64,000 nucleotides of DNA from Cyclobacteriaceae bacterium (GTDB lineage Bacteria > Bacteroidota > Bacteroidia > Cytophagales > Cyclobacteriaceae), in the NCBI GenBank assembly GCA_016786585.1, contig JAEUUI010000030.1:124001-188000 (forward strand), written 5' to 3'. Shown here one piece after another: positions 39,015 through 58,819 of this stretch. Positions within the stretch are counted from its first letter, which is position 1. The number at the start of each line of letters is the position of its first letter. The position numbers and the translations under genes were made by a program. Under the pieces are notes generated by a model. The model was not told the origin of the DNA and did not search any database. It worked only from the letters and a program-made list of their open reading frames with translations.

Positions 39015-39030
39015 TGGCACGGTGTTTTCC
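39015..39030 (+). promoter_or_regulatory. Sigma-54-like -24/-12 promoter for the 39053 gene
   Basis: TGGCACGGTGTTTTCC has a perfect -24 element (TGGCACG) and TT-T-C at the -12 spacing (GG-N11-C), 38 bases before the ATG at 39053. It is the best single -24 match of the set that recurs through 39-59 kb. Confidence 0.55.
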
Positions 39031-39052
39031 CTTACCAGGAAAAAATACTTGT

Positions 39053-39424
39053 ATGAAACGACTACTCATAACCGCAGTATTGCTGGCAAGCTTGCAAAGC
39101 GCATTTGCCCAAAATCTGCTCGACTCCTTAAAGGGCCATTGGACGATCACCAAGATCACTCCGAACGCAAAAAATGTTAAACCAGGTTCGCTGTACTTTA
39201 GTGACGATGGTAAGTTTGTAAGCACCGGCCAACCGATCGGTTCGCAACATGCATTGTTCAGCACTAACGAAACAACTTCAACCGTTCTCATTGAAAGCTC
39301 CGATAAATCGGGGGCGGAATGGAAAGTGATTATCAAAAGCGGAGTATTAACCATGACGAGCACCAACCCACAGAAAAAGAATGAACCCGGGGTGACAATC
39401 ATGGCAGTCAGAAAGCGACAATAA
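39053..39424 (+). CDS. Small exported protein of unknown function
   Basis: The 123-residue protein has a signal peptide (LLITAVLLASLQSAFAQ) and a small beta-rich mature domain with a lipocalin-like beginning (LLDSLKGHWTITKITPNA) and LYFSDDGKFVSTGQP. I do not recognise a named family. I chose the ATG at 39053, which gives a clean signal peptide; an ORF start at 39014 would lie before the promoter. It ends in a terminator that overlaps the convergent gene. Confidence 0.65.
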   Translation: MKRLLITAVLLASLQSAFAQNLLDSLKGHWTITKITPNAKNVKPGSLYFSDDGKFVSTGQPIGSQHALFSTNETTSTVLIESSDKSGAEWKVIIKSGVLTMTSTNPQKKNEPGVTIMAVRKRQ

Positions 39425-39440
39425 TTGATGCAAAATAGGA

Positions 39441-39467
39441 AGAAGGCTAACCAGCCTTCTTTTTTTT
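39441..39467 (+). terminator. Intrinsic terminator overlapping the 3' end of the convergent gene
   Basis: AGAAGGCT-AACC-AGCCTTCT (39441-39460) followed by eight T. The T-run is, on the other strand, the AAA/AAG codons of the C-terminal GKKKKAG of the low-affinity iron permease-like gene. Confidence 0.88.
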
Positions 39468-39917
39468 GCCCAGCTCTTCCGCCTCGTCAATGGAATGTGA
39501 ACTGTGCAGATCGTTTTGCTTCAGGGCGATTTTGGAAAGCTTAATATAAAATTTCTTCAATACCTCCAGTTCCTCATCCGTCAAATCTTCCACATCAATG
39601 AGCCGGTTGCTGGCGTGCCGTTGCGAAGCGATTAACTCGTTCAGTTTCAGGTGAATCGCTACCGTATCCTTGTTCTGAGATTGCTGAATAATAAACACCA
39701 TCAAAAATGTGATGATGGTTGTACCCGTGTTAATAAAAAGTTGCCAGGTGTTTGAATAATCGAACAGTGGCCCGCACAGCGCCCATACAATTACAATTCC
39801 CATCGCCACAATGGACGTAACAGGCTTGCCAGCGATGCGTGTAACGGTGTTGGATATTTTATTGAATGCCCGACCAAGAGGTGAACATTTCACGTTTTTT
39901 AAAGCCTTACTCATCAT
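39447..39917 (-). CDS. Low-affinity iron permease family-like membrane protein
   Basis: The 156-residue protein has two transmembrane helices (SIVAMGIVIVWALCGPLFDY and FINTGTTIITFLMVFIIQQS), the core of the low affinity iron permease family, followed by QNKDTVAIHLKLNELI, also typical of that family. Iron transport by bacterial members is not established. It ends in a Lys-rich tail. It overlaps the topoisomerase gene by four bases (last gene of a four-gene unit). Confidence 0.82.
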   Translation of the reverse strand: MMSKALKNVKCSPLGRAFNKISNTVTRIAGKPVTSIVAMGIVIVWALCGPLFDYSNTWQLFINTGTTIITFLMVFIIQQSQNKDTVAIHLKLNELIASQRHASNRLIDVEDLTDEELEVLKKFYIKLSKIALKQNDLHSSHSIDEAEELGKKKKAG

Positions 39918-40999
39918 CCCAATCTTTTTAGAATCCGCATCAACACTTTTTCCTCACATGTAAGCTCTATTGAATCTTCAACATCTGCTGTTATTTCAAG
40001 TTCTTTCAGGTAACGGGTTAAGCTTTGTTCTTCGTAAAGTTTAACAATTCCCGGATGGATATAATATTTCCGGCAAACAGAGCGGGTGTTGCCTAATTTT
40101 GAGCTGACTTCATCAATTGCAGCAACAACATTTTTCTTCACCTGTGCATTGTCATCACAAAGCCCTAAGTTCTTGAAACACGATAGCACGGTCAGTGAGC
40201 CTGCCCAGGTTCTGAAATCCTTTGCTGTAAAATCGTTTCCGGTGGCTTCCTTGATGTAGTTGTTAACCATGCCGGAATCAACACTGCACCGTACGCCTTC
40301 TTCGTTCATGTACTGGAAAAGTTCTTTGCCGGGGATATCGCGACACGCCTGCACAATTTTGGCCAGCCGTTTATTTTTCAGTGTGATCGAATGATGAATA
40401 CCCTTTTTGCCCTTAAAAGAGAAGGCAATGGTTGCACCATTGATTTTAACATGCCCGTCTTTTAATGTGGTTAAGCCATACGAGCCGTAAAGCTTCTCGT
40501 ATTCGCTGTTGCCAACACGAATGAATGTTTTCTCCATCAGGCTGACTATCGTGGCAAGCACTTTATCTTTTGAAAGCGTTGCCGAAGCAAGGTCATGCTC
40601 CAGCCTTTTCCGCAATGCCGGAAGGCACTTACCAAACTCCAATAAACGATGAAATTTTGTCTGGTTGCGGATCTCGTTCCACTGCGGATGGTATTTGTAT
40701 TGTTTTCTGTGACGAACATCAAACCCGGTTGCCTGGATATGGCCGTTATCCTTTTCAGAAATCCAGACATTTGTCCAGGCTGGCGGTATCACCAGCTTTT
40801 TAATACGCATTAAAACTTCTTTGTCTTTGACGACTTCACCGGTACTGAGCCGGTAAGCGAAACCAGTACCTTTCTTAATTCGAAGGATTCCGGGAGCGGA
40901 ATCAGAAACATACTGAAGGCTTGCAATTTTAGCCGTGAACTTGTAATCCCGATGAAGGCGGTTTGATGCTACCCGCGACACATTAGCCACTGCTACCAT
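39914..40999 (-). CDS. DNA topoisomerase IB (poxvirus-like)
   Basis: The 361-residue protein matches bacterial type IB topoisomerases: the N-terminal YRLSTGEVVKDKEVLMRIKK and IPPAWTNVWIS, KHH-type HRKQYKYHP, the catalytic core with Arg/Lys in GNSEYEKLYGSYGLTTLKDGH (in part) and KDFRTWAGSL, and the C-terminal NTRSVCRKYYIHPG with the active-site Tyr. It relaxes supercoils by a 3'-phosphotyrosine intermediate. It is the third gene of a unit that begins at 41552 behind a sigma-54-like promoter. Confidence 0.92.
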   Translation of the reverse strand: MVAVANVSRVASNRLHRDYKFTAKIASLQYVSDSAPGILRIKKGTGFAYRLSTGEVVKDKEVLMRIKKLVIPPAWTNVWISEKDNGHIQATGFDVRHRKQYKYHPQWNEIRNQTKFHRLLEFGKCLPALRKRLEHDLASATLSKDKVLATIVSLMEKTFIRVGNSEYEKLYGSYGLTTLKDGHVKINGATIAFSFKGKKGIHHSITLKNKRLAKIVQACRDIPGKELFQYMNEEGVRCSVDSGMVNNYIKEATGNDFTAKDFRTWAGSLTVLSCFKNLGLCDDNAQVKKNVVAAIDEVSSKLGNTRSVCRKYYIHPGIVKLYEEQSLTRYLKELEITADVEDSIELTCEEKVLMRILKRLG

Positions 41000-41010
41000 A
41001 CTGCAAGACG

Positions 41011-41190
41011 TTAGGCCCGGAACTGGAATCCCAGTAAACCAATGGCTAATAAAATCATATAAAGTGAGCGGATAATGAGGAGCCAGTCGTTATTCACATA
41101 TCCATACCCCATATTCGTAAAGCTTAACCAAATAGGTTCAGTCTTTACTTTCCTCAACTCCGACATCCTGCTCCTCAAAAACCGACTCAT
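41011..41190 (-). CDS. Small membrane protein (59 residues)
   Basis: ATG at 41190, TAA at 41011-41013. The protein starts MSRFLRSRMSELRKVKTEPI and ends with one hydrophobic helix, LLIIRSLYMILLAIGLLGFQ, and a short basic tail. It fits with 11-base gaps on both sides between the 41552 gene and topoisomerase IB. I do not recognise a family. The gene spacing and amphipathic/hydrophobic pattern support a real product. Confidence 0.5.
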   Translation of the reverse strand: MSRFLRSRMSELRKVKTEPIWLSFTNMGYGYVNNDWLLIIRSLYMILLAIGLLGFQFRA

Positions 41191-41201
41191 AACGTTAATA
41201 C

Positions 41202-41552
41202 TTAAGCGTGTGCTTTATCTTTCTTTTGGATTTCTTCCACAGCTTTGATGAATTCCGCAATCTTGTTGTCAGAATACATTCCGTACGAATCCACCAACGT
41301 GCCTTTGCGGCCATCGGAAGTTTCAACCAAATACAAGATTGAATTGTCGTTCGGATCTGAATAGCCCTCAAACCGGTAGAAGTTATTTATCTTTATTTCA
41401 GAAGGCTCGTAGAATTTCTGATCAGACACCGAAGCACCTGTCATTCCCTTACCTTCAACTTTAAAGCTCTCCGTATATCCATCAAGCACCGCATTGTTCA
41501 TGCATGAGGTGAGCGTTGACATTGTTTCAGGGGTGTTTGTTATTGTTTTCAT
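41202..41552 (-). CDS. Conserved Bacteroidota hypothetical protein
   Basis: The 116-residue soluble protein contains YEPSEIKINNFYRFEGYSDP and NSILYLVETSDGRKGTLVD, which recur in a small family widespread in Bacteroidota. Some databases label it as phosphoribosylpyrophosphate synthetase, but the sequence lacks a PRPP loop, so I do not use that name. It heads the unit that continues into the 59-residue protein, topoisomerase IB and the permease-like gene. Confidence 0.7.
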   Translation of the reverse strand: MKTITNTPETMSTLTSCMNNAVLDGYTESFKVEGKGMTGASVSDQKFYEPSEIKINNFYRFEGYSDPNDNSILYLVETSDGRKGTLVDSYGMYSDNKIAEFIKAVEEIQKKDKAHA

Positions 41553-41577
41553 AACCTTCGTTTTTTAAACCAGGTAT

Positions 41578-41593
41578 AGAAAATCTTTTGCCA
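41578..41593 (-). promoter_or_regulatory. Sigma-54-like promoter for the topoisomerase IB operon
   Basis: On the minus strand TGGCAAAAGATTTTCT, 41 bases before the ATG at 41552. It shares the TTTCT -12 version with 39015, 45436 and 57616. A perfect inverted repeat GGGAAT-ATT-ATTCCC lies 48 bases further upstream. Confidence 0.55.
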
Positions 41594-41632
41594 CAAAAAA
41601 GTCGCTAAATCAGCCTGATTTTAAGGTTTATT

Positions 41633-41648
41633 GGGGAATATTATTCCC
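41633..41648. promoter_or_regulatory. Inverted repeat GGGGAATATTATTCCC, candidate activator site
   Basis: GGGAAT (41634-41639) and ATTCCC (41643-41648) are a perfect repeat about a 3-base centre, 48 bases upstream of the -24 element of the topoisomerase operon. Similar G(G/T)GGAA..TCC(C/A)C elements occur before several other promoters of the cassette. Confidence 0.4.
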
Positions 41649-41672
41649 AGGATTGTAGATAGCGGCAATAAA

Positions 41673-41698: not shown

Positions 41699-41714
41699 CA
41701 ATTGGTTGATTGTT

Positions 41715-42325: not shown

Positions 42326-42341
42326 ATCAAAAGGGATACCG
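42326..42341 (-). promoter_or_regulatory. Sigma-54-like promoter for the DUF892 gene
   Basis: On the minus strand CGGTATCCCTTTTGAT, with TTG at the -12 position and a C in place of T at the first -24 base, 42 bases before the ATG at 42299. A TAGGAAAATACCCA element (42386-42399) lies about 52 bases further upstream. Confidence 0.5.
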
Positions 42342-44906: not shown

Positions 44907-45095
44907 TTATAATTCAGCCAGTTCTTTTCTGATATCATCTTTTGTACGGCCAAGGCGCTTCTGCAGGCGGCCCAACAATTCGTCTTCTTTGCCTTCGGCA
45001 AACATCAAATCGTCATCGGTTAATTCGCCATACTTTTGCTTCAGTTTCCCCTTAGCTTCATTCCACGTTCCCTTCAATTCTAGCTTCGTTGTCAT
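44907..45095 (-). CDS. CsbD family stress protein
   Basis: The 62-residue protein matches CsbD throughout: [20 protein letters not shown] followed by a second half, [19 protein letters not shown]. CsbD-like proteins are small, charged, and induced in general stress responses; the molecular role is unknown. It follows the ytxH-like gene by 18 bases. Confidence 0.92.
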
Positions 45096-45113
45096 AGTCT
45101 GAGATTTAAATGG

Positions 45114-45374
45114 TTAAACTTTCACACGTTCGCTCGTGTGATTGATCGCCTCTTTACCCTGTTTCGCGAGTCTGTCAATTTTTGCATTGAACTGATCACG
45201 AAGAGCATCAAGCGACTCTTCAACTGAACTCAAAAGCTCATCTTTTAATTTATTCGAGCCTTTGATCAATTTTTTACGTGTCTGCACTCCGCTTGCGGGT
45301 GCCAGAAGAATTCCAGCCGCAACGCCAAGCGCTGCACCTGCGAGCAATCCTCCGATCAAACTTTTTGCGTTCAT
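45114..45374 (-). CDS. YtxH-like membrane-anchored protein
   Basis: The 86-residue protein has one N-terminal transmembrane helix rich in Gly/Ala (IGGLLAGAALGVAAGILLAP) with the YtxH LLAP motif, and a soluble amphipathic helical tail. YtxH-family proteins accompany stress genes in many bacteria. It heads a unit with csbD. A second YtxH-like gene occurs at 59942. Confidence 0.88.
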   Translation of the reverse strand: MNAKSLIGGLLAGAALGVAAGILLAPASGVQTRKKLIKGSNKLKDELLSSVEESLDALRDQFNAKIDRLAKQGKEAINHTSERVKV

Positions 45375-45435: not shown

Positions 45436-45451
45436 AGAAAAGTATGTGCCA
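45436..45451 (-). promoter_or_regulatory. Sigma-54-like promoter for ytxH-csbD
   Basis: On the minus strand TGGCACATACTTTTCT, an exact TGGCAC -24 with TTTCT at -12. It is 77 bases from the ATG at 45374, further than for the other units, giving a leader of about 50 bases that includes the CCGCAC/GTGCGG repeat. Confidence 0.45.
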
Positions 45452-45582
45452 GTTGACAACGAACCGCGAGTTGTTGGTTTTCGCAAACCATTTTGTGCGC
45501 AAAACAATTCTGTTTTAAAAGTTATACAGTTATCTCAGGCCGTATTGAGCCAGCGCATGCCTGTAGAATTGTGCTAGTATCC

Positions 45583-45596
45583 GGGGAGAACATTCT
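45583..45596. promoter_or_regulatory. GGGGAGAACATTCT element, candidate activator site
   Basis: An imperfect dyad related to GGGGAATATTATTCCC, centred 61 bases upstream of the -24 element of the DUF2267 promoter. Confidence 0.3.
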
Positions 45597-45650
45597 ACAT
45601 CAAACCCCGCGCGAAGCATTAAAAATCCTGTAAAAACAACGCCCACCAAA

Positions 45651-45666
45651 TGGTACGAAGATTTAT
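45651..45666 (+). promoter_or_regulatory. Sigma-54-like promoter for the DUF2267 operon
   Basis: TGGTACGAAGATTTAT has TGGYACG at -24 and TTT at -12, 42 bases before the ATG at 45693. Confidence 0.5.
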
Positions 45667-46367: not shown

Positions 46368-46389
46368 TTTGAATCAATAATTCAAACTA

Positions 46390-46689
46390 ATGAAAACGAT
46401 CATCAGAATTTTATCAGCAGGAGCTTTCGTAACAGCCGTTACGCTTAGCTCATGCGTTTCTGACACGGTTGCAAGCCGGCCGGCAGATCCGGTGGTGGTT
46501 GTTCCTGCTTCACCGGGACCCAACTATGTATGGGTTAACGGTTCATGGCATTACAACCGGCCGACACGTGCCTATGTATATCGTGAAGGATATTGGGTAG
46601 TTCCGGCCCGCGCCGGAAGAACCTGGGTTGAAGGACATTGGGTACAAACCGGCAGAGGCTGGCGATATGTAAAAGGGCACTGGCGTTAG
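46390..46689 (+). CDS. YXWGXW repeat lipoprotein
   Basis: The 99-residue protein has a lipoprotein signal (AVTLSSCVSD) and a mature part with four aromatic repeats of the type (Y/W)VxxGxW: YVWVNGSWHY, YVYREGYWVV, TWVEGHWVQT and RYVKGHW. Such YXWGXW repeats are found in small surface or periplasmic lipoproteins of unknown function. The terminator stem includes its last codons and the stop. Confidence 0.85.
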   Translation: MKTIIRILSAGAFVTAVTLSSCVSDTVASRPADPVVVVPASPGPNYVWVNGSWHYNRPTRAYVYREGYWVVPARAGRTWVEGHWVQTGRGWRYVKGHWR

Positions 46690-46699: not shown

Positions 46700-46731
46700 C
46701 TTATCGGTTTTTTTCGTTTCAACGCAAATTG

Positions 46732-47220
46732 ATGGGTATGACACAGTCGGGGAATATTGAAACGTTCAATGATTTAATTCGCGCACACCGCGACAGAATA
46801 GCAGAATACCAAAATGCCACGCTCAGGCTTCGGCCACAGGAAGCCGGGCTGGCTTCAACCTTCACGGAAATAATCCGCGAAAGCGAGCAATGTATAGCCG
46901 ACCTTACGAGCCGAATGATTTCGGAGGGTGACGTTCCCGAGAACCGGACTTCATTCGAAGGAAAAATCTTCCAGCTTTGGATGGATCTGAAAGTAAAGTT
47001 TTCGGCCAATCCTAATTCTTCTTTACTTGACATTTGCGAAAAGGGTGAAGACGCGATGCTGAAATGTTATCGCGAAGCCCTGAAGCATCCGGGTACATTT
47101 GCTCCGGATGATATTCATCTCCTTAACTCCCAGCAGGAGATTGTGACAAAAACACATGACATAATTAAAGCCAAGCGTGATCAATATCACGAGTTGGTGA
47201 AGAATAATCAAATTATATGA
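46732..47220 (+). CDS. DUF2383 four-helix-bundle protein, copy 1 (PA2169-like)
   Basis: The protein of about 162 residues is an all-helical DUF2383 bundle: FNDLIRAHRDRIAEYQNATL, FTEIIRESEQCIADLTSRMI, then EGKIFQLWMDLKVKF and EKGEDAMLKCYREAL. Its neighbour at 47342 is a clear paralogue. PA2169-type proteins are ferritin-superfamily relatives linked to stress. Start may be 46732 or 46738; a TTG at 46729 is less likely. Confidence 0.82.
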   Translation: MGMTQSGNIETFNDLIRAHRDRIAEYQNATLRLRPQEAGLASTFTEIIRESEQCIADLTSRMISEGDVPENRTSFEGKIFQLWMDLKVKFSANPNSSLLDICEKGEDAMLKCYREALKHPGTFAPDDIHLLNSQQEIVTKTHDIIKAKRDQYHELVKNNQII

Positions 47221-47299
47221 GTGCGATTTTCTATACCATCATGTCATTTTATCTACAGGAATTAAAAGTATCCTAATGCAATTCTCATCATTTTTCAAT

Positions 47300-47315
47300 T
47301 GGTATAATTTTTTTA
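47300..47315 (+). promoter_or_regulatory. Sigma-54-like promoter for the second DUF2383 gene
   Basis: TGGTATAATTTTTTTA, 42 bases before the ATG at 47342. The -24 half is good (TGGYA) and the -12 half is a plain T-run. An AGGAATTAAAAGTATCCT repeat (47257-47274) lies 35 bases upstream. Confidence 0.4.
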
Positions 47316-47341
47316 GCGGGGAAGACTCAAACGTGAGGAGT

Positions 47342-47839
47342 ATGAAAACGAGGCAGCGTGACAAAACGATTGAGGTGCTGAACGACCTTTTGAAAATCAA
47401 TACAGACCGGGCCGATGGCTACACCCTGGCAATTCAGGAAAGCAAGGATGCCGACCTGAAGATTATGTTCAGAAACATGGCCGAAGAAAGTAAAAAAAAT
47501 ATCTCAGACCTAAGCCGCATCATTCTGCAGCTTGGGGGCGATCCGAAATTCGGAGAAAATACAGTAGCCGGAAAAATCTACCATGTGTGGATGGAGCTTA
47601 AAACCTCCTTTACGGGAAAAGACAGGCAGGCTATTTTGAATTCGTGCGAATTCGGAGAAGATGCCGCGGTTAAGGCCTACAAGAGCGCAGTTCGCGAACA
47701 GGACCTGGTTGTGGAAGCGTTTGATTTGATTTACCGGCAAGCACAGTTGCAGCGTGCCTCACACGATGTGATTCGCGCGTACCGCGATGCAAATCTCAAA
47801 CTCCGGCAAGCTGAGTTTGAAACAGGATCAATTAAATGA
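47342..47839 (+). CDS. DUF2383 four-helix-bundle protein, copy 2
   Basis: The 165-residue paralogue of the preceding gene has VLNDLLKINTDRADGYTLAI, FRNMAEESKKNISDLSRIIL, AGKIYHVWMELKTSF and CEFGEDAAVKAYKSAV. I chose the ATG at 47342 because family N-termini begin near here and the promoter-like element 42 bases upstream would otherwise be inside the gene; an ATG at 47276 would add 22 unmatched residues. Its stop overlaps the next gene by four bases. Confidence 0.83.
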   Translation: MKTRQRDKTIEVLNDLLKINTDRADGYTLAIQESKDADLKIMFRNMAEESKKNISDLSRIILQLGGDPKFGENTVAGKIYHVWMELKTSFTGKDRQAILNSCEFGEDAAVKAYKSAVREQDLVVEAFDLIYRQAQLQRASHDVIRAYRDANLKLRQAEFETGSIK

Positions 47840-48414
47840 AGCAGGTCAATTACTATAAATTATTAGTTATACCGCTCATCATTCTGATTGCGCTGCTCAC
47901 TTCATTATGCACACCACGCGAATCGCAGGTTGACAGCAAGGAAGTGGCCGACGAGAAAAATAAGGAAAAATTCACAACACGCGAAGCACGCCAGGACGCA
48001 AAAATTGTTACGGCAGCCGTAGCCTCTTCTCTGGCAGAAATCAGGCTCGCTGAACTGGCGATTGAGAAAACACGCGATGAAGAGGTAAAGAACATTGCGC
48101 TTCATTTTAAAAATGATCATGCCATGTTACTGGCCGATTTAAGGACCTATGCTGCCGGACATGTAATCACTGTTCCTTCAGCAGAAGGCAACAGCGAGCG
48201 TTCAGAGATAGAAAAGCTGAAGGCTGAATCTTCCAACTTCAATAAAAAGTGGTGTGAGCAGGTACGCGATCTCCACAAAGATGCAATCTCAAACCTCGAA
48301 CGGGCCAGGGAGAACGCAAGTGATCCCGATTTGCGAAAATGGGCAACTAACACTCTCCCGCGGTTGCGGAAAAATCTTGACCTGGCATCCGCTTGTTACA
48401 ACCGCGTGAAGTAA
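47836..48414 (+). CDS. DUF4142 lipoprotein
   Basis: The 192-residue protein has a lipoprotein signal (LIILIALLTSLCTPRES) and a DUF4142 ferritin-like helical domain: VTAAVASSLAEIRLAELAIE, VKNIALHFKNDHAMLLADLR, CEQVRDLHKDAISNLERARE and CYNRVK. It is coupled to the DUF2383 gene (ATGA overlap). Its stop is directly adjacent, with no gap, to the stop of the convergent kinase gene at 48415. Confidence 0.83.
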   Translation: MKQVNYYKLLVIPLIILIALLTSLCTPRESQVDSKEVADEKNKEKFTTREARQDAKIVTAAVASSLAEIRLAELAIEKTRDEEVKNIALHFKNDHAMLLADLRTYAAGHVITVPSAEGNSERSEIEKLKAESSNFNKKWCEQVRDLHKDAISNLERARENASDPDLRKWATNTLPRLRKNLDLASACYNRVK

Positions 48415-49860
48415 CTATTCCGCGAGTTTAAAATAGATAATAAACGAAGTACCCTTCTTCACTTTACTTTCCACTTCAATGTTCGCATTATGACTGCTGA
48501 TAATGTTTTTTGTAGAGGTAAGTCCCAGGCCCATCCCTCCGGGTTTTTCGGTAAAGAACGGATCGAACAGCTTTTCTAAATCTTCGGCAGGTATACCTTT
48601 CCCGTTATCAGAGATCGTTACCACGATGGTGTGATCCAGGCGTTTAACTTCCACCGTAAGTTCACCTTTACCCCGCTCCATCGCTTCGATTGCGTTAACG
48701 ATGATGTTAAGAAAGGCAATTTTCAATTTCTCACGGTCAACCAGAATGCGCGGAAGGTTCTCAATGAAATTTTTCCTGAGCTTAATCTGGTTCAGGTTGA
48801 TGCTGTCCGTAGCCAGTGCGATAGTCTCATTAAGAATCTCCGTTACTTCCGCCAACTCGAGATTCAGATCTTTCGGTTTGGACGAGTTAAGCATTTCGGT
48901 AATGAGCGTATCAATTCGTTTTGCATTACGTTCGATAATTTCACTGTACAGCTTTACCGATTCATTGTCTTTCGGCATTTCATCGCGCAGGTGTTCCAGT
49001 GCAAGATTCAGGTTTGTTAACGGGTTGCGAACTTCGTGGGCGATAGTCCTGGCAAGTTTACCCGTCATGGACAATCGCTCTGCAACCAGCATATCTTTCT
49101 CTGCCTTCTTGCGAAGCGTAAGATCATAGATGATCCCCTGGTAGCAGCAGAAGTCGGACGTCTGATCCGGAATAAATACGCAGTTGATCATACAGATCTT
49201 CTTCTCACCACGGTTATTCACCAGTACCACTTCAAAGTCTTTTACCTGTTCATCCTCGCGTAATTCGGAAAGCAAATATTCATAGTCCTTTTCATCGGCA
49301 AATATTTGCGAAAGGCTTAACGAACGGGCATCATCATGCGAGTATCCAAAAAAATTCAGGAACGACTCGTTCACATCCAGTAATTTAAAATCAATGTTTG
49401 CAAGAAAAATGGGATCAATCGATCGCTCGAACAGCGACCGGTATTTTTTCTCCTTCTCATCGAGCTCACGGATCACGCGCGACTGTGAAAGCGCATACCG
49501 AATACTCCGCTCCAGCATTGAGGCATCCAAATCCGTTTTTACCAGGTAATCCGCTGCACCGTACCGGCTCGCGTCAATATCAACCTTTAAATCGCCCTGG
49601 CCGGTTAACAAAATACAGGGTGTTAGAACACCGTTTTCCTGCGCATATTTGATAAGATCCAGCCCGGTTTCACTGCCCAGACGGTAGTCGACCAGAATCA
49701 CATCGTGCGAATTTTCGGTCATTTTTTCACGGGCTTTGTCAGTTTCCGCAATCCACTCCAGTTCGAACTTAAAGTTCTCACTGTCGGACAGGTATTCTTT
49801 CGCCAACAGCACGTCATCTTCGTCATCTTCAATCAGCAGAACTCGTATTTGTTGTCTCAT
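48415..49860 (-). CDS. Response regulator-PAS-histidine kinase hybrid
   Basis: The 481-residue protein has an N-terminal receiver domain with phospho-acceptor D58 (VILVDYRLGSETG) and LVKTDLDA, a PAS domain at about 140-260 (FERSIDPIFLANIDFKLLDV), a HisKA helix with the His in LARTIAHEVRNPLTNL, and an HATPase domain with FLNIIVNAIEAM and ISDNGKGIPAEDL. It has no membrane segment, so it senses in the cytosol and can be phosphorylated by another kinase. It follows the CHASE3 kinase gene by 31 bases and is likely co-transcribed with it. Confidence 0.9.
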   Translation of the reverse strand: MRQQIRVLLIEDDEDDVLLAKEYLSDSENFKFELEWIAETDKAREKMTENSHDVILVDYRLGSETGLDLIKYAQENGVLTPCILLTGQGDLKVDIDASRYGAADYLVKTDLDASMLERSIRYALSQSRVIRELDEKEKKYRSLFERSIDPIFLANIDFKLLDVNESFLNFFGYSHDDARSLSLSQIFADEKDYEYLLSELREDEQVKDFEVVLVNNRGEKKICMINCVFIPDQTSDFCCYQGIIYDLTLRKKAEKDMLVAERLSMTGKLARTIAHEVRNPLTNLNLALEHLRDEMPKDNESVKLYSEIIERNAKRIDTLITEMLNSSKPKDLNLELAEVTEILNETIALATDSINLNQIKLRKNFIENLPRILVDREKLKIAFLNIIVNAIEAMERGKGELTVEVKRLDHTIVVTISDNGKGIPAEDLEKLFDPFFTEKPGGMGLGLTSTKNIISSHNANIEVESKVKKGTSFIIYFKLAE

Positions 49861-49891: not shown

Positions 49892-51715
49892 TTATCGTGC
49901 GTATGGGAAGATGAGGATAAACTCCGAACCCTGATTAATTACGCTTTGTGCGCGAATGTATCCGCGATGGTTCGACATGATCTTTCTGCAAATGGCAAGG
50001 CCGATACCGGTTCCTTCATACTCCGCCCTTCCCTGGAGCCGCTGGAAAATGTTGAATATCTTTTCTGAATATTTTTCATCGAAGCCGATGCCGTTGTCTT
50101 TAACAACGATGCGTACATATGCCGGCTCGGTTAGTGAAAATCCGAATTCCTTCTCGGCTTCGTTGGAAGAAATCACATCTCCTGAAATTTCAACCACGGG
50201 TAATGCGCCCGGCTTATGGAATTTAATTGCATTGCTGATCAGGTTCTGGAACAAGCGCCTGATCTGACCGCGGTCGCCATTGATTTCTGCGATCGGCTTG
50301 ACACCCACTTTTGCTTTCTCGCGTAGAATTTGTCCTTCGATATCATCAACAACTTCATTTACCACTGCGGTAAGGTCAACCCGTGTAAATTGTTCGTGTC
50401 CGCTCGAAATCCGTGAAAACGATAGCAGGTCTTCAATCAGCTTTTGCATACGTGCTGATGCCTGTTGCATGCGCGTGATGTACTCAGCTCCTACTTCATC
50501 AAGCTTGTCTTCATAGCGGGCTGCCAGCCGGTCGCCAAACGCGCGGATTTTACGAAGCGGCTCCTGTAAATCGTGCGAGGCCACGTACGCAAATTGCTCA
50601 AGGTCCTGATTGGAGCGCTTCAATTCTTCGGCGTACTGTGTGAGCCGGGACTCGGCAATTGTCTTTTCGGTTACATCGGTATACGTTACAATCAACCCGT
50701 CATCGAGTTTTACGGCAGCCATGTAAAACCATTTCACTTCTCCGCTCAAATCAAACTCGCGCTCAAACTGCTGGGAAATACTAGTATCAACCACACTTTT
50801 GTAGATATCGAATAACCCCGATTTTTTTGCATCCGGAACAACATCCAGCAGGCGTTTGCCGGTAAGATCGCCTTTACCACGCCCCAGTGTTTGGGCACTG
50901 ATAAAGTTCGCAAGCATCCATTGAAAGTCAGTTATCTCCCCGTTTTCATCGCGCACCGACGCGAACGCCATAATTCCATCCAGCGAGTGATCAAGAATAT
51001 TTTGAATAGTACGTTGGGCGAATTGCTTTTCGGCAACCTCACGCTCGAGTGTTTTGAGATTTTCTTTCAATCCGATTTCTGCTTTTCGTTTTTGATCAAG
51101 CGCACCCATAACTCGTGAGAATAAAAATGCGACTCCAAAAACAGAAATAATCGAAAACGCAAGCAATGAAAAGGGTGCGATGTTCCGGTAACCTTCTTCT
51201 GTCGCGATACGATTCGTATACAGCTCTTCCTCTACGGCCCGGATTTTTCCGATCACAGCCCGGATGCGGCTCATGTTATTCTTACCGTCCTTCAACAGTT
51301 TGCTTTCATACCGGTCCATGTACAACGAACTGCGCTCTGCGTTCGATAAGATTCGGCTGATCAATAGGTATTGATCATTGATCAGGGTTTGAAGGGTATC
51401 GACATAACGTTTTTGCATAAAGTTATCCTGAACCATGCTGTCGAGGTCGTGAAGCATGCCGGGTAACTGTCGGATAGATGCGTGGTAGGGTTCGAGATAA
51501 CTTGAATCGCGGGTGAGCTGAAATCCCCGGTGCCCCGTCTCTGCATCTTTCACGGCAGAAAGTACATTTTCCACCAGGCGGAAAACCACACTTGAGTGAC
51601 GTACCAGCTTTACCTCGTTGATATAATTATTCAGGTTGCGATACGTCATCAAACTGATGAAGACCAGCACAATCAGCGTAGATAAAAATATGAACCGAAT
51701 GTAAATATTCTTCAT
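49892..51715 (-). CDS. CHASE3-PAS sensor histidine kinase
   Basis: The 607-residue membrane kinase has a first transmembrane helix (FIFLSTLIVLVFISLMTY), a periplasmic CHASE3 domain (residues 38-175, with AETGHRGFQLTRDSSYLEPY), a second helix (FSLLAFSIISVFGVAFLFS), a coiled coil, a PAS domain, HisKA with FAYVASHDLQEPLRKIRAFG and HATPase with FQNLISNAIKFHKPG and GTGIGLAICRKIM. It is phytochrome-kinase-like in the C-terminal half. It probably responds to an envelope or extracellular cue and passes phosphate to the nearby regulators. A sigma-54-like element lies 44 bases upstream. Confidence 0.9.
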   Translation of the reverse strand: MKNIYIRFIFLSTLIVLVFISLMTYRNLNNYINEVKLVRHSSVVFRLVENVLSAVKDAETGHRGFQLTRDSSYLEPYHASIRQLPGMLHDLDSMVQDNFMQKRYVDTLQTLINDQYLLISRILSNAERSSLYMDRYESKLLKDGKNNMSRIRAVIGKIRAVEEELYTNRIATEEGYRNIAPFSLLAFSIISVFGVAFLFSRVMGALDQKRKAEIGLKENLKTLEREVAEKQFAQRTIQNILDHSLDGIMAFASVRDENGEITDFQWMLANFISAQTLGRGKGDLTGKRLLDVVPDAKKSGLFDIYKSVVDTSISQQFEREFDLSGEVKWFYMAAVKLDDGLIVTYTDVTEKTIAESRLTQYAEELKRSNQDLEQFAYVASHDLQEPLRKIRAFGDRLAARYEDKLDEVGAEYITRMQQASARMQKLIEDLLSFSRISSGHEQFTRVDLTAVVNEVVDDIEGQILREKAKVGVKPIAEINGDRGQIRRLFQNLISNAIKFHKPGALPVVEISGDVISSNEAEKEFGFSLTEPAYVRIVVKDNGIGFDEKYSEKIFNIFQRLQGRAEYEGTGIGLAICRKIMSNHRGYIRAQSVINQGSEFILIFPYAR

Positions 51716-51743
51716 GCTGTGGACACGTTTCTACATGGGGTGT

Positions 51744-51759
51744 GACAAAAATCTTTCCA
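51744..51759 (-). promoter_or_regulatory. Sigma-54-like promoter for the CHASE3 kinase
   Basis: On the minus strand TGGAAAGATTTTTGTC, with TTG at -12, 44 bases before the ATG at 51715. It is divergent with the element at 51818. Confidence 0.5.
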
Positions 51760-51817: not shown

Positions 51818-51833
51818 TGGCTCAAGATTTACA
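51818..51833 (+). promoter_or_regulatory. Sigma-54-like promoter for the outer-membrane beta-barrel gene
   Basis: TGGCTCAAGATTTACA, 45 bases before the ATG at 51863; the -12 half is TTACA. It shares AAGATTTAyAG with the DUF2267 promoter. Confidence 0.5.
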
Positions 51834-52867: not shown

Positions 52868-54271
52868 CTACGCTTTAATGTTATAAAGCTTGAGCTTGTT
52901 ATAGAGTGTTTTACGGTCGATGTTCATCAATTCCGCAGCGCGTGACTTGTTGTAATTCACTTTTTCGAGTACGTCAATAATCGCCTGGCGCTCAGCTGAG
53001 CCTGCAATGTTTTTAAGCAAGCTGACTTCTTCGTTGTGATGCTGTGAAATCCCTGCCATTTCCATGGAGTGAACAATCTCCTGAGGCAGTGCTTCTGCTT
53101 CAACAGTTTCACCCTGCGTTAACAGAACAGCGCGTTTTACCACGTTATTCAGCTCCCGGAGGTTTCCATGCCAGTAGTAGTTACGTAACTGGTCTGTCAC
53201 TTCCGGTGAGAAGGCTTTCGCATTTTTATTCAGCGCCACGTTGGCTTTTTGCAGGAAATGATCCGCGAACACAAGAATGTCTTCCTTCCGCTCACGCAAC
53301 GGTGAAAGCGAGATTTTAAACTCGTTAAGGCGGTGGTAAAGATCTTCGCGGAAGCGTCCTTCTTTTACGGCCTTATTGAGGTCTTCATTTGTTGCTGCGA
53401 TAATGCGCACATCAATGGCAATATCACGTGTAGCACCGATTCGCTTGATTCTGCGCTCCTGCAATACGCGAAGCAGTTTAACCTGATTCTCGTACGACAG
53501 GTTTCCGATCTCGTCCAGGAAGATGGTTCCGTTATTGGCTACCTCAAAACTTCCTTGCTTGTCGTTTACAGCACCGGTAAAAGCACCTTTTACGTGACCA
53601 AACAGTTCGCTTCCCGCAAGTTCTTTTGGAAGTGCACCACAGTCGATGGCGATAAAAGCTTTATCCGAACGATTACTGAAACGATGGATTGCCTGCGCAA
53701 CGAATTCTTTACCGGTTCCGGTTTCACCGGTAATGATAACCGACATGTCGGATGGCGCGATAAGTTCAACATACCGCTGAACGGTTTGTGACTGTACGCT
53801 CTTCCCGACAATAAAATCCTGGCCGCTTTTCGTTGTTGTTCCGCGGCTTGGTTTCGCTGCGTCAGTTTTACCGTTTTGTGCCTTATCTCCGGTAAAACTT
53901 TTATTGCTGTTTTTGGCGATTGTTTCGCGGATGGTGACCAGCAACTCATCCGGATATAATGGCTTCGTCACATAATCGCTCGCTCCGTACCGGAAGGTTT
54001 CAACAGCCGTGCGAACATCCGAATAGCCGGTAATGATAATCACAGGAACGTTCGGACTTAATACTTTTATTTTTTGCAGGGCTTCAACTCCCGTGATATC
54101 CGGCAGGCGATAGTCGCACAAAATAAGGATATACTCGGTGTCGCGCAGCAGCTTTAAACCGCCTTCGCCTGTGTGGGCGATATCCACCTCATAATCATTT
54201 TTGGTTAGGAATTTCGACAGCACAAGGCACATGTCCTTATCATCATCTATCACCAGGATTCTTCCGATCAT
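52868..54271 (-). CDS. NtrC-type sigma-54-dependent response regulator
   Basis: The 467-residue protein is a full NtrC-family activator. It has a receiver with D53 (LILCDYRLPDITG), a central AAA+ ATPase with Walker A GETGTGKE, the sigma-54-contacting loop HVKGAFTGAVNDKQ, Walker B GTIFLDEIG and the Arg finger region RREDLYHRL-like RFREDLYHRLNEF, and a C-terminal Fis-type HTH (NYNKSRAAELMNIDRKTLYN). Such proteins bind distant upstream sites as oligomers and open RpoN promoters. It follows a lone receiver gene (6-base gap) and is the obvious candidate to drive the sigma-54-like promoters around it. Confidence 0.95.
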   Translation of the reverse strand: MIGRILVIDDDKDMCLVLSKFLTKNDYEVDIAHTGEGGLKLLRDTEYILILCDYRLPDITGVEALQKIKVLSPNVPVIIITGYSDVRTAVETFRYGASDYVTKPLYPDELLVTIRETIAKNSNKSFTGDKAQNGKTDAAKPSRGTTTKSGQDFIVGKSVQSQTVQRYVELIAPSDMSVIITGETGTGKEFVAQAIHRFSNRSDKAFIAIDCGALPKELAGSELFGHVKGAFTGAVNDKQGSFEVANNGTIFLDEIGNLSYENQVKLLRVLQERRIKRIGATRDIAIDVRIIAATNEDLNKAVKEGRFREDLYHRLNEFKISLSPLRERKEDILVFADHFLQKANVALNKNAKAFSPEVTDQLRNYYWHGNLRELNNVVKRAVLLTQGETVEAEALPQEIVHSMEMAGISQHHNEEVSLLKNIAGSAERQAIIDVLEKVNYNKSRAAELMNIDRKTLYNKLKLYNIKA

Positions 54272-54277: not shown

Positions 54278-54634
54278 TTAGTTTATTACTTGGAGGTTAT
54301 TTAAAACAAGTTCTATCGTTCGTTTCGAAAATGGCTTGGGAATAAAGCCGTCGGCTCCGCACTCCAGAGCTTTTCTGCGTTCAACATCATACGCACTGAT
54401 TACTACCACACGCGAGTCTGAGTTGATGTTGTTCAACGATTCAAGAAGATCGAAGCCCGAACCATCAGGTAAGTTTAAATCGACAAAAATGACATCGTAT
54501 CCTGTGGGGGAAATCTTCGCTTTAGCCTCCCCGATGGATGAAACGTACTCAGCGTTCAGGCCGAGAGATTTCAGGTGCAGGGTTAGCAAGCGACAGATGT
54601 CCAGCTCATCGTCTACGACTAAAGCCTTCTTCAT
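54278..54634 (-). CDS. Single-domain response regulator
   Basis: The 118-residue protein is a receiver domain alone, with DDE acidic pocket, phospho-acceptor D52 (VIFVDLNLPDGSGFD), the Ser/Thr in VVVISAYD and the switch Lys in FIPKPFSKRT. It could relay phosphate between the kinases and the activator that follows six bases later. Confidence 0.9.
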   Translation of the reverse strand: MKKALVVDDELDICRLLTLHLKSLGLNAEYVSSIGEAKAKISPTGYDVIFVDLNLPDGSGFDLLESLNNINSDSRVVVISAYDVERRKALECGADGFIPKPFSKRTIELVLNNLQVIN

Positions 54635-54652: not shown

Positions 54653-54838
54653 TTACCGAATGCTCAATACGCCTTTGTGGCGGATCGACTTCAAGCTCTT
54701 CACTTCGTAGCGGTTGCTTCCCAATCCGAGTTTGGTAACCTTAAAGGGGAAGAAGATTCGGATCATGAGTGCTGCTACACTCCACCCGCCTGCGAATAAG
54801 ATCACGATCGATAACAAAACCTTGAGAAAATCTTCCAT
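54653..54838 (-). CDS. Small membrane protein upstream of the response regulator pair
   Basis: The 61-residue protein starts MEDFLKVLLSIVILFAGGWS with one transmembrane helix (about residues 5-27) and has a basic soluble tail ending KSIRHKGVLSIR. No family recognised. I placed the start at 54838 because the upstream residues do not match a membrane protein start. It lies 18 bases before the receiver gene and is probably in the same operon. Confidence 0.55.
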   Translation of the reverse strand: MEDFLKVLLSIVILFAGGWSVAALMIRIFFPFKVTKLGLGSNRYEVKSLKSIRHKGVLSIR

Positions 54839-54861: not shown

Positions 54862-54877
54862 GAGAAAAATCATGCCA
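54862..54877 (-). promoter_or_regulatory. Sigma-54-like promoter for the activator operon
   Basis: On the minus strand TGGCATGATTTTTCTC, 39 bases before the ATG at 54838. The TTTCT -12 version sits one base closer than in the others, so this is a weaker match. Confidence 0.4.
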
Positions 54878-54925
54878 CCGGTAAAAATGGTGCATCTTCC
54901 CCGAATACTAAAGAAATGTAGAAAA

Positions 54926-54948
54926 AATTCCACAAATCGTGGGGAATT
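54926..54948. promoter_or_regulatory. Inverted repeat exactly between two divergent sigma-54-like promoters
   Basis: AATTCCAC (54926-54933) and GTGGGGAATT (54939-54948) pair with a 2-base bulge. The centre (about 54937) is 60 bases from the -24 start of both the minus promoter (54877) and the plus promoter (54996). It is a candidate shared enhancer for the NtrC-type activator encoded next door. Confidence 0.45.
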
Positions 54949-54995: not shown

Positions 54996-55011
54996 TGGCA
55001 CGCTTTTTAGC
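54996..55011 (+). promoter_or_regulatory. Sigma-54-like promoter for the lmo0937-like gene
   Basis: TGGCACGCTTTTTAGC has a perfect -24 TGGCACG, 46 bases before the ATG at 55042. The GC dinucleotide falls one base beyond the ideal -12 spacing. Confidence 0.5.
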
Positions 55012-55041: not shown

Positions 55042-55194
55042 ATGAACAATCTACTTTATGTCATCGCGGTTATATTGATTATCGGATGGATCTTCGGCTT
55101 CTTCGTATACAGCGCTGGCGGGTTGATCCACATCCTGCTCGTGATCGCGGTTATTGCTATTGTGTTAAGATTAATTCGCGGGGACAGAGTTTAA
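55042..55194 (+). CDS. lmo0937 family small membrane protein
   Basis: ATG at 55042, TAA at 55192-55194, 50 residues. It begins MNNLLYVIAVILIIGWIFGF and continues with a second helix IHILLVIAVIAIVLRLI, the pattern of the lmo0937 family of two-helix stress-associated peptides, with a short basic C-terminus (RGDRV). The function is unknown. It is a single-gene unit closed by a hairpin at 55201. Confidence 0.88.
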   Translation: MNNLLYVIAVILIIGWIFGFFVYSAGGLIHILLVIAVIAIVLRLIRGDRV

Positions 55195-55229: not shown

Positions 55230-55242
55230 TTCATTTCTATGT

Positions 55243-56844: not shown

Positions 56845-56863
56845 TTTAATAACATACGATTTT

Positions 56864-57277
56864 CTACTTCCGTCCCCAGGCTTCAATCACAGCCTTCTTT
56901 GAAGATGCGTTTTTGGTATCGTACCAAAAAGTAATTTTCTCAATGATCCGGTTATTCCCTTTCAGGTCAACTGTTTTTTCGGAATTCGCGGTAAACTGGT
57001 GCTTGATTTCAATTTCCTGTTTATCGCCATTCTCGAATGTAACCATACACCGGTGCATATTGATATTCCCGTCCAGCACGCGAAACTTCAATGTGGTAAA
57101 GGTTCCTTTTTTGTACGTTACCGGGATCACATCATAATCGAGTGTGTAATCCACCACATGTGTTCCTAATTGTTGCCACTCTTCGGAAACAGAACTTGTT
57201 TGTGCAACTGCCAGTTTGTTGCTAACCAGCGTGCCGATCAGGAACGATACCACAAACAATATGTTAATTGTTTTCAT
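56864..57277 (-). CDS. Small exported protein, DUF2541-like
   Basis: The 137-residue protein has a signal peptide (NILFVVSFLIGTLVSNKLAVA) ending near AQ, and a beta-sandwich mature part with WQQLGTHVVDYTLDYDVIPV, NMHRCMVTFENGDKQEIEIK and IIEKITFWYDTKN. The pattern resembles DUF2541 proteins of the envelope, function unknown. It is 7 bases downstream of the disordered protein gene. Confidence 0.6.
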   Translation of the reverse strand: MKTINILFVVSFLIGTLVSNKLAVAQTSSVSEEWQQLGTHVVDYTLDYDVIPVTYKKGTFTTLKFRVLDGNINMHRCMVTFENGDKQEIEIKHQFTANSEKTVDLKGNNRIIEKITFWYDTKNASSKKAVIEAWGRK

Positions 57278-57284
57278 AATAACC

Positions 57285-57587
57285 TTAGCGTTTACTTTGC
57301 TCGCGTTGTTTTTCCATTTCGCGTTGCTTACGCTCCTGCTCGCTCAGGCTTTCATTGCCTTTCCGGCCACCTTCACCACCCGATTGGTTATCACCATTCG
57401 TGATTTCTTCCTCTTCATCCTGATTCGTTCTGCGCTTTTGATCATCTTCATTGATGCCGCGGTTCGGATTAGTTGTATTTTGAGAAGGCTCAGGACGTTT
57501 GCTATTCTGAGAATCTTGCTCTTTGTTCTTGTCTTTCATCGCAGTGCGTTCCTGCACATCCGATTGATTTTCATTTTCACGTTTCAT
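57285..57587 (-). CDS. Disordered hydrophilic protein
   Basis: The 100-residue protein has almost no hydrophobic residues and is rich in Glu, Lys, Asn, Gln and Arg (for example RENENQSDVQERTAMKDKNK and EQERKQREMEKQREQSKR). It looks intrinsically disordered, similar to hydrophilin or LEA-type protectants of desiccation and osmotic stress. A sigma-54-like element lies 44 bases upstream, and the 56864 gene follows in the same unit. Confidence 0.6.
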   Translation of the reverse strand: MKRENENQSDVQERTAMKDKNKEQDSQNSKRPEPSQNTTNPNRGINEDDQKRRTNQDEEEEITNGDNQSGGEGGRKGNESLSEQERKQREMEKQREQSKR

Positions 57588-57615
57588 ACTTCAATTGTTT
57601 TGTTTGCGTGAATAC

Positions 57616-57631
57616 AGAAAGAAATATGCCG
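57616..57631 (-). promoter_or_regulatory. Sigma-54-like promoter for the disordered-protein unit
   Basis: On the minus strand CGGCATATTTCTTTCT (C instead of T at the first -24 base), 44 bases before the ATG at 57587, with TTTCT at -12. Confidence 0.45.
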
Positions 57632-57703
57632 GGAAGTTAAATGATCAAATAGGGAGTAATTCAGCCATTCACCTGTTTATCATCTGTAGAATATAGAACA
57701 CAA

Positions 57704-58636
57704 CTAGGGTTTCGCAACGTTCTGAATGGGCACTTTCTTCTCAATCTCGATTGTTTCCACCCGCACTGCGTTGGTGTAGGGTTCGATGCCACTACCAATT
57801 TCCTTGGTGTACACATATGTAAGCTCGGCACCAAACAGGAAAATGAGTGCTGAATAATACACCCACACGAGGATGATTACCAGCGAACCAGCCGCCCCGT
57901 AAGCAGAATTCAGCGAACTGCTGCCAAGATACAACCCAATCAAAAATTTCCCGCTTGTAAAAAGTGCTGTGGTCACAAACGAACCCACCCATACATCGCG
58001 CCAGCGGATTTTGGCATCGGGGAGCATTTTGAACATCAATCCAAATAAAAGCGCAATGAACAACAACGACATTACCACGTTGAGGCTCGTAACAAGCACC
58101 AGGGTAATCCCGCCCAAATTATCGGACAGCCGTTCTTGAAACATCACCAGCAGCGTATCAATCACCAGCGACACCATCAGCACGAAACCCATACTGATCA
58201 CCATTGCCAGTGAAAGCAGGCGATTGACCAGAAATTTAATAAACCCACGTTTGGGTTTCGGTTTGATTTTCCAGATTTGATTTATACTGATCTGCAGGGA
58301 AAGAAACACAGATGTGGCGCTGACCACGAGCGTGACAATGCCGACCACGCGCGCAAACCAGGTGTCGGTATGCCGCGCCGCATTGAGCAGAATATTTTCA
58401 ATTTCCATCGCACTACCCAACCCGATTAGTGAACCGACTTGCGAGATGAGTTCGCGTTGCACATCCGCACGCTCAAAAAGCGTTGAACCAAGCGAGAGGG
58501 AAATGAGCAGAATAGCCGGCAACGAAAAGATCGTATAAAAGGCAATGGAAGACGCATGTGTAAACGATGGTCCTTCAACAAAGTTCACTACGCTTTGCTT
58601 GAGAACGCCCCAGGATGATTTTGCAAATTTTTTCAT
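57704..58636 (-). CDS. YihY/BrkB family membrane protein
   Basis: The protein of about 310 residues has six transmembrane helices and the family N-terminus SFTHASSIAFYTIFSLPAIL, and GAAGSLVIILVWVYYSALIF near the C-terminus. YihY (formerly called RNase BN) is a membrane protein of unclear function, possibly a transporter. I chose the ATG at 58636; one at 58666 would add ten residues. A weak sigma-54-like GGGCTTAATCTTTGGA is present 41 bases upstream. Confidence 0.87.
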   Translation of the reverse strand: MKKFAKSSWGVLKQSVVNFVEGPSFTHASSIAFYTIFSLPAILLISLSLGSTLFERADVQRELISQVGSLIGLGSAMEIENILLNAARHTDTWFARVVGIVTLVVSATSVFLSLQISINQIWKIKPKPKRGFIKFLVNRLLSLAMVISMGFVLMVSLVIDTLLVMFQERLSDNLGGITLVLVTSLNVVMSLLFIALLFGLMFKMLPDAKIRWRDVWVGSFVTTALFTSGKFLIGLYLGSSSLNSAYGAAGSLVIILVWVYYSALIFLFGAELTYVYTKEIGSGIEPYTNAVRVETIEIEKKVPIQNVAKP

Positions 58637-58661
58637 GCAGGTTGTTATGACGCACCCAGCA

Positions 58662-58677
58662 TCCAAAGATTAAGCCC
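58662..58677 (-). promoter_or_regulatory. Weak sigma-54-like element before the YihY/BrkB gene
   Basis: On the minus strand GGGCTTAATCTTTGGA, with TTG at -12 but a poor -24 (GGGCTTA), 41 bases before the ATG at 58636. It is listed because of the constant distance. Confidence 0.25.
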
Positions 58678-58737
58678 TTTAAAAAGTTACCATAGTGATT
58701 TTTTTTAGCACTTCTGTAGAGGGGCAGGCCTGCTGAT

Positions 58738-58755
58738 TGTGGAAAAGTATCCACA
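58738..58755. promoter_or_regulatory. Inverted repeat TGTGGA-N6-TCCACA, candidate activator site
   Basis: Perfect 6-bp arms (58738-58743 and 58750-58755), centred about 57 bases upstream of the -24 element of the AI-2E transporter promoter. Its sequence GTGGAAAAGTATCCAC aligns with GGGGAATATTATTCCC at 41633. Confidence 0.4.
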
Positions 58756-58803
58756 CTTTTTAAGAAACAAGCTGTTTATGGGGCTGTTTTAGCGGTTTAC
58801 GGT

Positions 58804-58819
58804 TGGGCACATTATTGAA
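58804..58819 (+). promoter_or_regulatory. Sigma-54-like promoter for the AI-2E transporter operon
   Basis: TGGGCACATTATTGAA, with TTG-A at -12, 42 bases before the ATG at 58846. Confidence 0.5.

Follow-up and report, generated by a model that had tools for sequence, protein, structure and literature searches.

The SigB regulons of Bacillota and the RpoS regulons of Proteobacteria include genes for CsbD, YtxH, YciF/DUF892, and Dps-like ferritins, and both are run by sigma-70-family factors and not by a sigma-54 enhancer system. Sigma-54 regulons and NtrC-type activators are also already known, as is a sigma-54 chaperone regulon in the Bacteroidota, the SM4 regulon of Flavobacterium psychrophilum. 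SM4 has -24/-12 promoters and a stress-type output, and the targets selected in Table 2 of its description (PMC9723704) are GroESL, DnaK, GrpE-DnaJ, HtpG, Lon, ClpB, gliding, and others. This selection, the full list being Table S2, names no CsbD, YtxH, DUF2383, or DUF5670, and the section concerned assigns no activator or operator. In the relevant passages of PMC8568364, csbD of Listeria is SigB dependent and negatively affected by sigma-54, and CsbD is absent from the main text of a 2025 survey of sigma-54 regulons (PMC12316311). Here, we describe a candidate sigma-54 regulon in a Cyclobacteriaceae bacterium, centered on a 64,000-nucleotide stretch (the window) at positions 124001 to 188000 of contig C9 in the 4.19-Mb draft genome G000. 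The nearest named records are two Cyclobacteriaceae metagenome-assembled genomes (MAGs) and two Chryseolinea genomes. Judging from sequence, it is quite probable that a palindrome-binding NtrC-type activator, together with sigma-54, drives about a dozen transcription units at 36 to 60 kb of the window and further units on other contigs. A full-text literature search, with most subscription papers outside its reach, returned no published account of this activator, operator, or target set.

The original prediction placed twelve -24/-12 elements before transcription units at 39 to 59 kb, and all twelve are present in the sequence with the spacings given. The first base of the -24 element, by which we name each site, lies 38 to 46 bases before the start codon in eleven cases and 77 bases before it in one. 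The candidate sites, with their distances to the start, are as follows.

39015-39030, plus strand: sigma-54 site TGGCACGGTGTTTTCC; 38 bases
41578-41593, minus strand: sigma-54 site TGGCAAAAGATTTTCT; 41 bases
42326-42341, minus strand: weak sigma-54-like site CGGTATCCCTTTTGAT, before DUF892; 42 bases; no operator
45436-45451, minus strand: sigma-54 site TGGCACATACTTTTCT, before the YtxH-CsbD operon; 77 bases
45651-45666, plus strand: sigma-54 site TGGTACGAAGATTTAT, before DUF2267; 42 bases
47300-47315, plus strand: weak site TGGTATAATTTTTTTA, before or inside a DUF2383 gene; 42 bases, with the internal ATG at 47342 as an ambiguous start (the longest open reading frame [ORF] begins at 47276); no operator
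51744-51759, minus strand: sigma-54 site TGGAAAGATTTTTGTC, before the CHASE3 kinase; 44 bases; 16/16 columns conserved; operator downstream
51818-51833, plus strand: sigma-54 site TGGCTCAAGATTTACA, before an outer membrane protein (OMP) gene; 45 bases
54862-54877, minus strand: sigma-54 site TGGCATGATTTTTCTC, before the activator operon; 39 bases (to the ATG at 54838)
54996-55011, plus strand: sigma-54 site TGGCACGCTTTTTAGC, before DUF5670; 46 bases
57616-57631, minus strand: sigma-54 site CGGCATATTTCTTTCT, before 57285-57587; 44 bases; 14/16 columns conserved; no operator scoring at least 10.5
58804-58819, plus strand: sigma-54-like site TGGGCACATTATTGAA, before the AI-2E transporter; 42 bases; 15/16 columns conserved; register ambiguous by one base

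In the island (39 to 60 kb), 10 of 17 leading genes have the underlying pattern, YGG-N8-TT, at -48 to -36, compared with 1 of the 17 other window leaders and 12 of 186 control leaders from the same contig (Fisher test, 2.5e-7). These control leaders come from 22 of 24 stretches of C9, none picked by motif; L025 and L026 were excluded because they overlap the window. The simple and crude hexamer caller used for gene calling overlooked the 50-amino-acid DUF5670 gene, and at least one of its island calls (46374-46523) is dubious. A generic sigma-54 matrix, with rounded probabilities and a maximum score of 17.7, agrees with the pattern count less sharply, averaging 6.88 over the 17 island leaders and 3.55 over 330 sample leaders, some of them from stretches picked for motif matches (Mann-Whitney test against these 330 plus the 17 other window leaders, 9e-5). 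Sites 42341, 47300, and 58804 score low, at 3.5, 3.7, and, in the register first proposed for this last site, 4.5. The -24 element opens with T/C-GG in 12/12 sites, as the pattern requires, and reads TGGCA in five and CGGCA in one more.

Aligning the upstream regions with those of relatives revealed an 18-bp palindrome, TGTRGAA-N4-TTCYACA. Six copies in the window score at least 14 (36604, 38958, 45582, 51718, 54917, and 58738), and five of the six serve 8 of the 12 sites. Over five intergenic regions compared with two close relatives (L002 and L003), the columns identical in all three sequences number 121/128 in the sigma-54 sites and 63/72 in the operators, compared with 423/790 outside the motifs. 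The palindromes, for which no strand is given, are as follows.

54917-54934: candidate operator TGTAGAAAAAATTCCACA, between the activator operon and DUF5670; score 21.2 of 22.0; 18/18 columns identical in L002 and L003
51718-51735: candidate operator TGTGGACACGTTTCTACA, between the CHASE3 kinase and OMP genes; score 17.6; 17/18 columns conserved
45582-45599: candidate operator CGGGGAGAACATTCTACA, between the YtxH and DUF2267 genes; score 15.3; 18/18 columns conserved
58738-58755: candidate operator TGTGGAAAAGTATCCACA, before the AI-2E transporter gene; score 18.7; 10/18 columns identical
38958-38975: candidate operator TGTAGAAACTTCTCCCCC, 57 bases before site 39015; score 15.1
41632-41649: weak operator-like palindrome TGGGGAATATTATTCCCA, 56 bases before site 41593; score 12.3, register off by one
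36604-36621: candidate operator TGTGGAATTTTGTCCCCA, outside the range first considered; score 17.5

Despite its 8/18 differing columns, the operator at 58738 still scores 21.2 in L002 and 17.2 in L003. The palindrome at 38958 overlaps the 5' end called for a divergent ORF (37755-39020), although the GTG start of this ORF is uncertain. The palindrome, which is coupled to 8 of the reported sites and to further sites in relatives, would serve as an upstream enhancer. The original prediction also treated 1 to 38 kb as nearly free of targets, a view to be amended by one further candidate.

36515-36530, minus strand: extra -24 element TGGCAC with an irregular -12 part, before the MlaE-type permease gene 35737-36492

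This element reads TGGCACAATTTCTATG, 38 bases before the start and with an operator palindrome 91 bases upstream, and the pattern misses it because its -12 part is irregular. The operator and -24 element at 36515-36621 also adjoin a divergent YdjM-type gene.

An activator gene in the middle of the island had been proposed as the regulator, and both the presence of rpoN in the genome and a density of matches far above that at other gene starts support that proposal. RpoN (PF04552, 1.4e-56) is encoded by an intact ORF of 486 amino acids with an RpoN box, ARRTVAKYRE, near its end. The activator is the only NtrC-family gene of the window, as claimed, but a full-length sigma-54 activator domain is encoded by eight genes across the genome. 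The regulatory genes are as follows.

52868-54271, minus strand: NtrC-family activator (Pfam Response_reg, Sigma54_activat, and HTH_8), with GAFTGA and Walker A motifs and a Fis-type helix-turn-helix (HTH) carrying NKSRAAELMNIDRKTLYNK
54278-54634, minus strand: single-domain response regulator of the activator operon (Pfam Response_reg, 3.6e-21)
54653-54838, minus strand: small protein of 61 amino acids, first gene of the activator operon (gene call)
49892-51715, minus strand: CHASE3-PAS histidine kinase (Pfam)
48415-49860, minus strand: receiver-PAS-histidine kinase (Pfam)

The activator shares a receiver, a GAFTGA-bearing AAA+ domain, and a Fis-type HTH with regulators of the NtrC, AtoC, and ZraR types. 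However, it reaches the curated cut-off of none of the 25 NCBIfam families shown (114 were matched), scoring 410 of 714 bits for AtoC, 387 of 559 for NtrC, and 381 of 760 for ZraR, and LuxO, GlrR, NtrX, FlbD, and FlgR are likewise among the named activators whose cut-off it does not reach. Nor does its candidate operator match the site bound by NtrC (TGCACC-N5-GGTGCA) or that bound by NifA (TGT-N10-ACA). The small protein is 90 to 97% identical in L002 and L003, and we could match it to no Pfam family.

Autoregulation, also proposed originally, is supported by the placement of one palindrome between the DUF5670 gene and the activator operon and of another beside the CHASE3-kinase operon. A signal would pass through the CHASE3 and receiver-PAS histidine kinases, perhaps by way of the small response regulator, to phosphorylate the activator (52868-54271). 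The phosphorylated form would bind TGTRGAA-N4-TTCYACA as an enhancer, about 55 to 150 bases from the -24/-12 promoters, and loop to sigma-54 RNA polymerase at those sites. With the activator and kinase operons among its targets, the circuit would give positive feedback.

Target families in the island include DUF892, YtxH, CsbD, DUF2267, DUF1328, DUF2383 (twice), DUF4142, DUF5670, OMP, BrkB-type, and AI-2E-type proteins, several of which recall the SigB and RpoS regulons (CsbD, YtxH, and YciF/DUF892). These include the following genes.

55042-55194, plus strand: small membrane protein of the DUF5670/lmo0937 family (Pfam; NCBIfam NF033488)
44907-45374, minus strand: YtxH and CsbD genes (Pfam)
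46729-48414, plus strand: two DUF2383 (PA2169 family) genes and a DUF4142 gene (Pfam, NCBIfam)

A single switch may govern all of the genes listed, and the gene families alone would suggest an envelope-type stress response as its output. Elsewhere in the window, an uninterrupted ORF of 2,062 amino acids occupies 22890-29078 on the minus strand.

The candidate operator is not confined to the window. Allowing at most one mismatch to TGKRGAANNNNTTCYMCA, we counted 19 sites in the genome compared with 5 for the reversed motif as control. Of the 15 examined in context, we assigned 10 a TGG-type -24 element 57 to 124 bases on, the element counted as the promoter being chosen by eye, and 9 of these 10 lie between genes according to the gene calls.

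Contig C9: paired palindromes at 160604, 175718, 178917, 182738, and 195869
Contig C8: paired palindromes at 22947, 40332, and 45465
Contig C7: paired palindromes at 61680 and 387287

The least certain pairs are C9:195869 (TGGTAAGG, matrix score 4.7), C7:61680 (inside a called ORF of 119 amino acids), and C7:387287 (6.8), and the other five palindromes examined lie inside ORFs. On the C9 stretches (L019 to L042 plus the window), all palindromes scoring at least 14 that are intergenic by the gene calls fall within C9:160604-195886; two more, in L037 and L041, sit inside genes. Neighbors of the C8 and C7 palindromes include genes for an OMP, DUF4397, a ferritin-like protein, and a further DUF2383 protein. 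The regulon had been called local, which fits the dense core in the window but not the palindromes with -24 elements on C7, on C8, at C9:195869, and at 36 kb of the window; it probably consists of this core plus outliers elsewhere (C7 and C8). A second cluster lies at C8:39434-45386 (L047 4434-10386), where DUF2383, DUF3185-like, ferritin-like, and penicillin-binding proteins are encoded and three operator-like palindromes score at least 14. The C7:387287 palindrome (L045 9287-9304) is a near-symmetric TGTAGACGGGCTTCTACA between OMP and response regulator genes, resembling the arrangement at 51718. At C1:27279 (L128), a palindrome inside an ORF is followed 145 bases on by TGGCATGATTTTTTGA, 46 bases before the start of a divergent ORF, which could be a further target.

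In relatives, the palindrome tracks with close activator orthologues. Using only similarity to the activator, we fetched 14 loci (L004 to L017); they hold 20 palindromes scoring at least 14, spread over 10 of the loci, compared with a mean of 1.65 in 20 second-order shuffles (genic matches being included on both sides), and 5 scoring at least 18, compared with none in the shuffles. A palindrome scoring at least 14 is present in the 21.7-kb locus of 6/6 orthologues at 62 to 96% identity (L002 to L006 and L016). Likewise, all three orthologues at 60% identity (G045, G059, and G029, the last sharing a genus with G059) have one scoring at least 20 within 1.5 kb, whereas 0/17 homologues below 49% have one scoring at least 14 at that distance. 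Overall, 4/13 loci at 49% identity or more have the palindrome, compared with 0/17 below (Fisher p = 0.026), these classes covering the 30 loci given among 61 matches listed. The HTH of close orthologues keeps DRKTLYNK, which is absent from the seven other activators of the genome. A Flavobacteriales MAG (L007 5909-12288) has palindromes with TGGCAC before genes for a Por-secretion-tail protein and a DUF4382 protein, beside a 51%-identical activator; the target set may differ in L007 because its palindromes precede these genes.

The activator orthologue of G045, G059, and G029 lies about 1 kb from a DUF5670 gene. The DUF5670 loci of G045 and G059 carry palindromes scoring 20.4 and 21.2, which are the same sites as two of the three 60%-orthologue palindromes, with TGGCACANAWTTTTCT 139 to 150 bases downstream. 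Activator identity differs between 7 genomes with a -24 element before the DUF5670 gene tested and 12 without one (Mann-Whitney p = 0.0007), 20 of the 36 genomes with DUF5670 having entered this search. G029 was omitted from the comparison and would count against it; the DUF5670 copy examined in G029 (L082, no -24 element) is a separate one from that beside its 60% activator.

Several observations weigh against a palindrome-binding activator and sigma-54 as the drivers of this regulon. No palindrome scoring at least 10.5 lies upstream of sites 42341, 47300, and 57631, whose membership is weaker, and site 41593 has a weak one only; in addition, the operator matrix was built after the window sites had been seen. 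Beyond close orthologues, the link between activator and palindrome fades: only 1/10 homologues at 49 to 54% identity has a palindrome scoring at least 14 within 1.5 kb. Those with a readable HTH mostly keep IDRKTLYNK, yet most of them have no palindrome close by, so the operator is not predictable from the HTH sequence alone. In other Cytophagales, a TGGCAY-type -24 element precedes only 7 of 29 DUF5670 genes (baseline, 1.6%), two of the seven being near-identical and two also having the palindromes of 20.4 and 21.2 with TGGCAC promoters. DUF2383 genes have a -24 element in 3/29 cases and a palindrome scoring at least 11 just upstream in 0/29, at least 4 of these loci having been read in a wrong or empty frame, and these counts rule out DUF2383 as a universal target. 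A strict joint pattern of operator plus TGGCAY occurs in 3 of 291 genomes of the order and 3 of 395 of the phylum, two overlapping sets that include our own genome (reversed control, 0). This pattern is too strict as a finder; G019 and G078, of the same genus, have none.

The main argument from sequence against plain sigma-54 promoters is the T-rich -12 box. The classical -12 GC element is mostly missing from the island, where G stands at -13 in 3/12 sites, compared with 27/27 clade groES sites (26 of 30 fetched loci were readable, plus our own groES), the matrix used to select the latter favoring G at -13. The -12 region is a T run, with G at the position in 6/44, in a set of operator-linked candidates drawn from several genomes; many of the 44 belong to close relatives, and some were certainly picked up by chance. 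The strict consensus TGGCAYRNNNNTTKCW fails to find the regulon because the -12 box departs from the textbook form, giving 5 matches in our genome compared with 13 for the reversed control. Experimentally validated Escherichia coli promoters with deviant -12 boxes are named in sections of PMC12316311, so the GC shortfall lowers the case for sigma-54 membership and does not exclude it. The T-rich box may reflect weaker contact at -12, variant spacing, or a promoter type specific to this regulon.

An unlikely alternative is that the palindrome is bound by another factor, such as a repressor or DnaA, and that several of the genome's eight activators act on the sigma-54 promoters. The half-site resembles a DnaA box, which is similar to TTTTCCACA, but the fixed N4 spacing and the TTCTACA halves misfit such a box. 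Varying palindrome distances, including one palindrome downstream of site 51759, and the 9/10 homologues at 49 to 54% without a nearby palindrome would suit a separate factor, whereas the proximity of palindromes to close orthologues of the activator, and to none of the 17 distant homologues, argues for the activator itself. Around the seven other activators (about 1.5 kb), the only palindromes scoring at least 13 reach 15.0 and 16.4, and the one of 16.4 lies within an activator gene. The groES loci count against the palindrome as a general feature of sigma-54 promoters: 1/31 has any palindrome scoring at least 14, about 1.4 kb from groES, and our own groES has none within 2 kb, unlike what an SM4-type targeting of groESL under the same operator would predict.

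It is still less likely that the sites are elements of a primary or extracytoplasmic function (ECF) sigma factor that merely begin with TGGCAC. The mostly missing GC doublet would fit this explanation, as would a second RpoD-like sigma factor of 287 amino acids, which may be a group-2 factor. The two RpoD-like sigma-70 proteins, both of this length, lie at L218 1096-1959 and L217 41-904 (contigs C9 and C2), and these two region-3 sigma factors do not allow the genome to be called free of alternative sigma-70 factors of group 2 or 3. On the other side, the sites are coupled to an activator gene with GAFTGA, and the primary-sigma box TAnnTTTG, as given in PMC9723704, precedes 0/17 island leaders and 32/186 others. 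The TGGCAY -24 element is also common to the island and to the clade groES promoters, which keep it together with a downstream TG (TGGCACAAAAAGTGTC in our own genome), and transcript mapping in F. psychrophilum assigns groES a sigma-54-type promoter (PMC9723704). The Cytophagales groES promoters (L149 to L179) would be useful as a reference for building a clade-specific sigma-54 matrix. A chance pile-up of the loose YGG-N8-TT pattern in AT-rich intergenic DNA, to which the 12/186 matching controls and the two or three of 12 sites that score like background might point, is negligibly probable given the Fisher test, the conservation, and the coupled palindrome.

With palindrome-binding activation through sigma-54 as the preferred explanation, what is new here is the palindrome, together with a possible promoter variant. 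It is conceivable, if somewhat doubtful, that this system is a Bacteroidota counterpart of general-stress regulons built on sigma-54, in which a phosphorelay and an activator subfamily not described before, having a dedicated operator and promoters with a T-rich -12 box, would place under one reversible switch the CsbD, YtxH, DUF892, DUF2383, DUF5670, and Dps-type genes that are under SigB or RpoS in other phyla. If functional, the T-rich -12 box would be a sigma-54 promoter variant missed by the strict consensus. The operator sequence could be used for target prediction in related genomes, and both a candidate operator and a candidate regulator are proposed for widespread genes of unknown function (DUF2383, DUF2267, DUF5670, DUF4142, CsbD, and YtxH). 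This makes a testable case that some Cytophagales may use an enhancer-dependent sigma-54 switch for stress-type genes.

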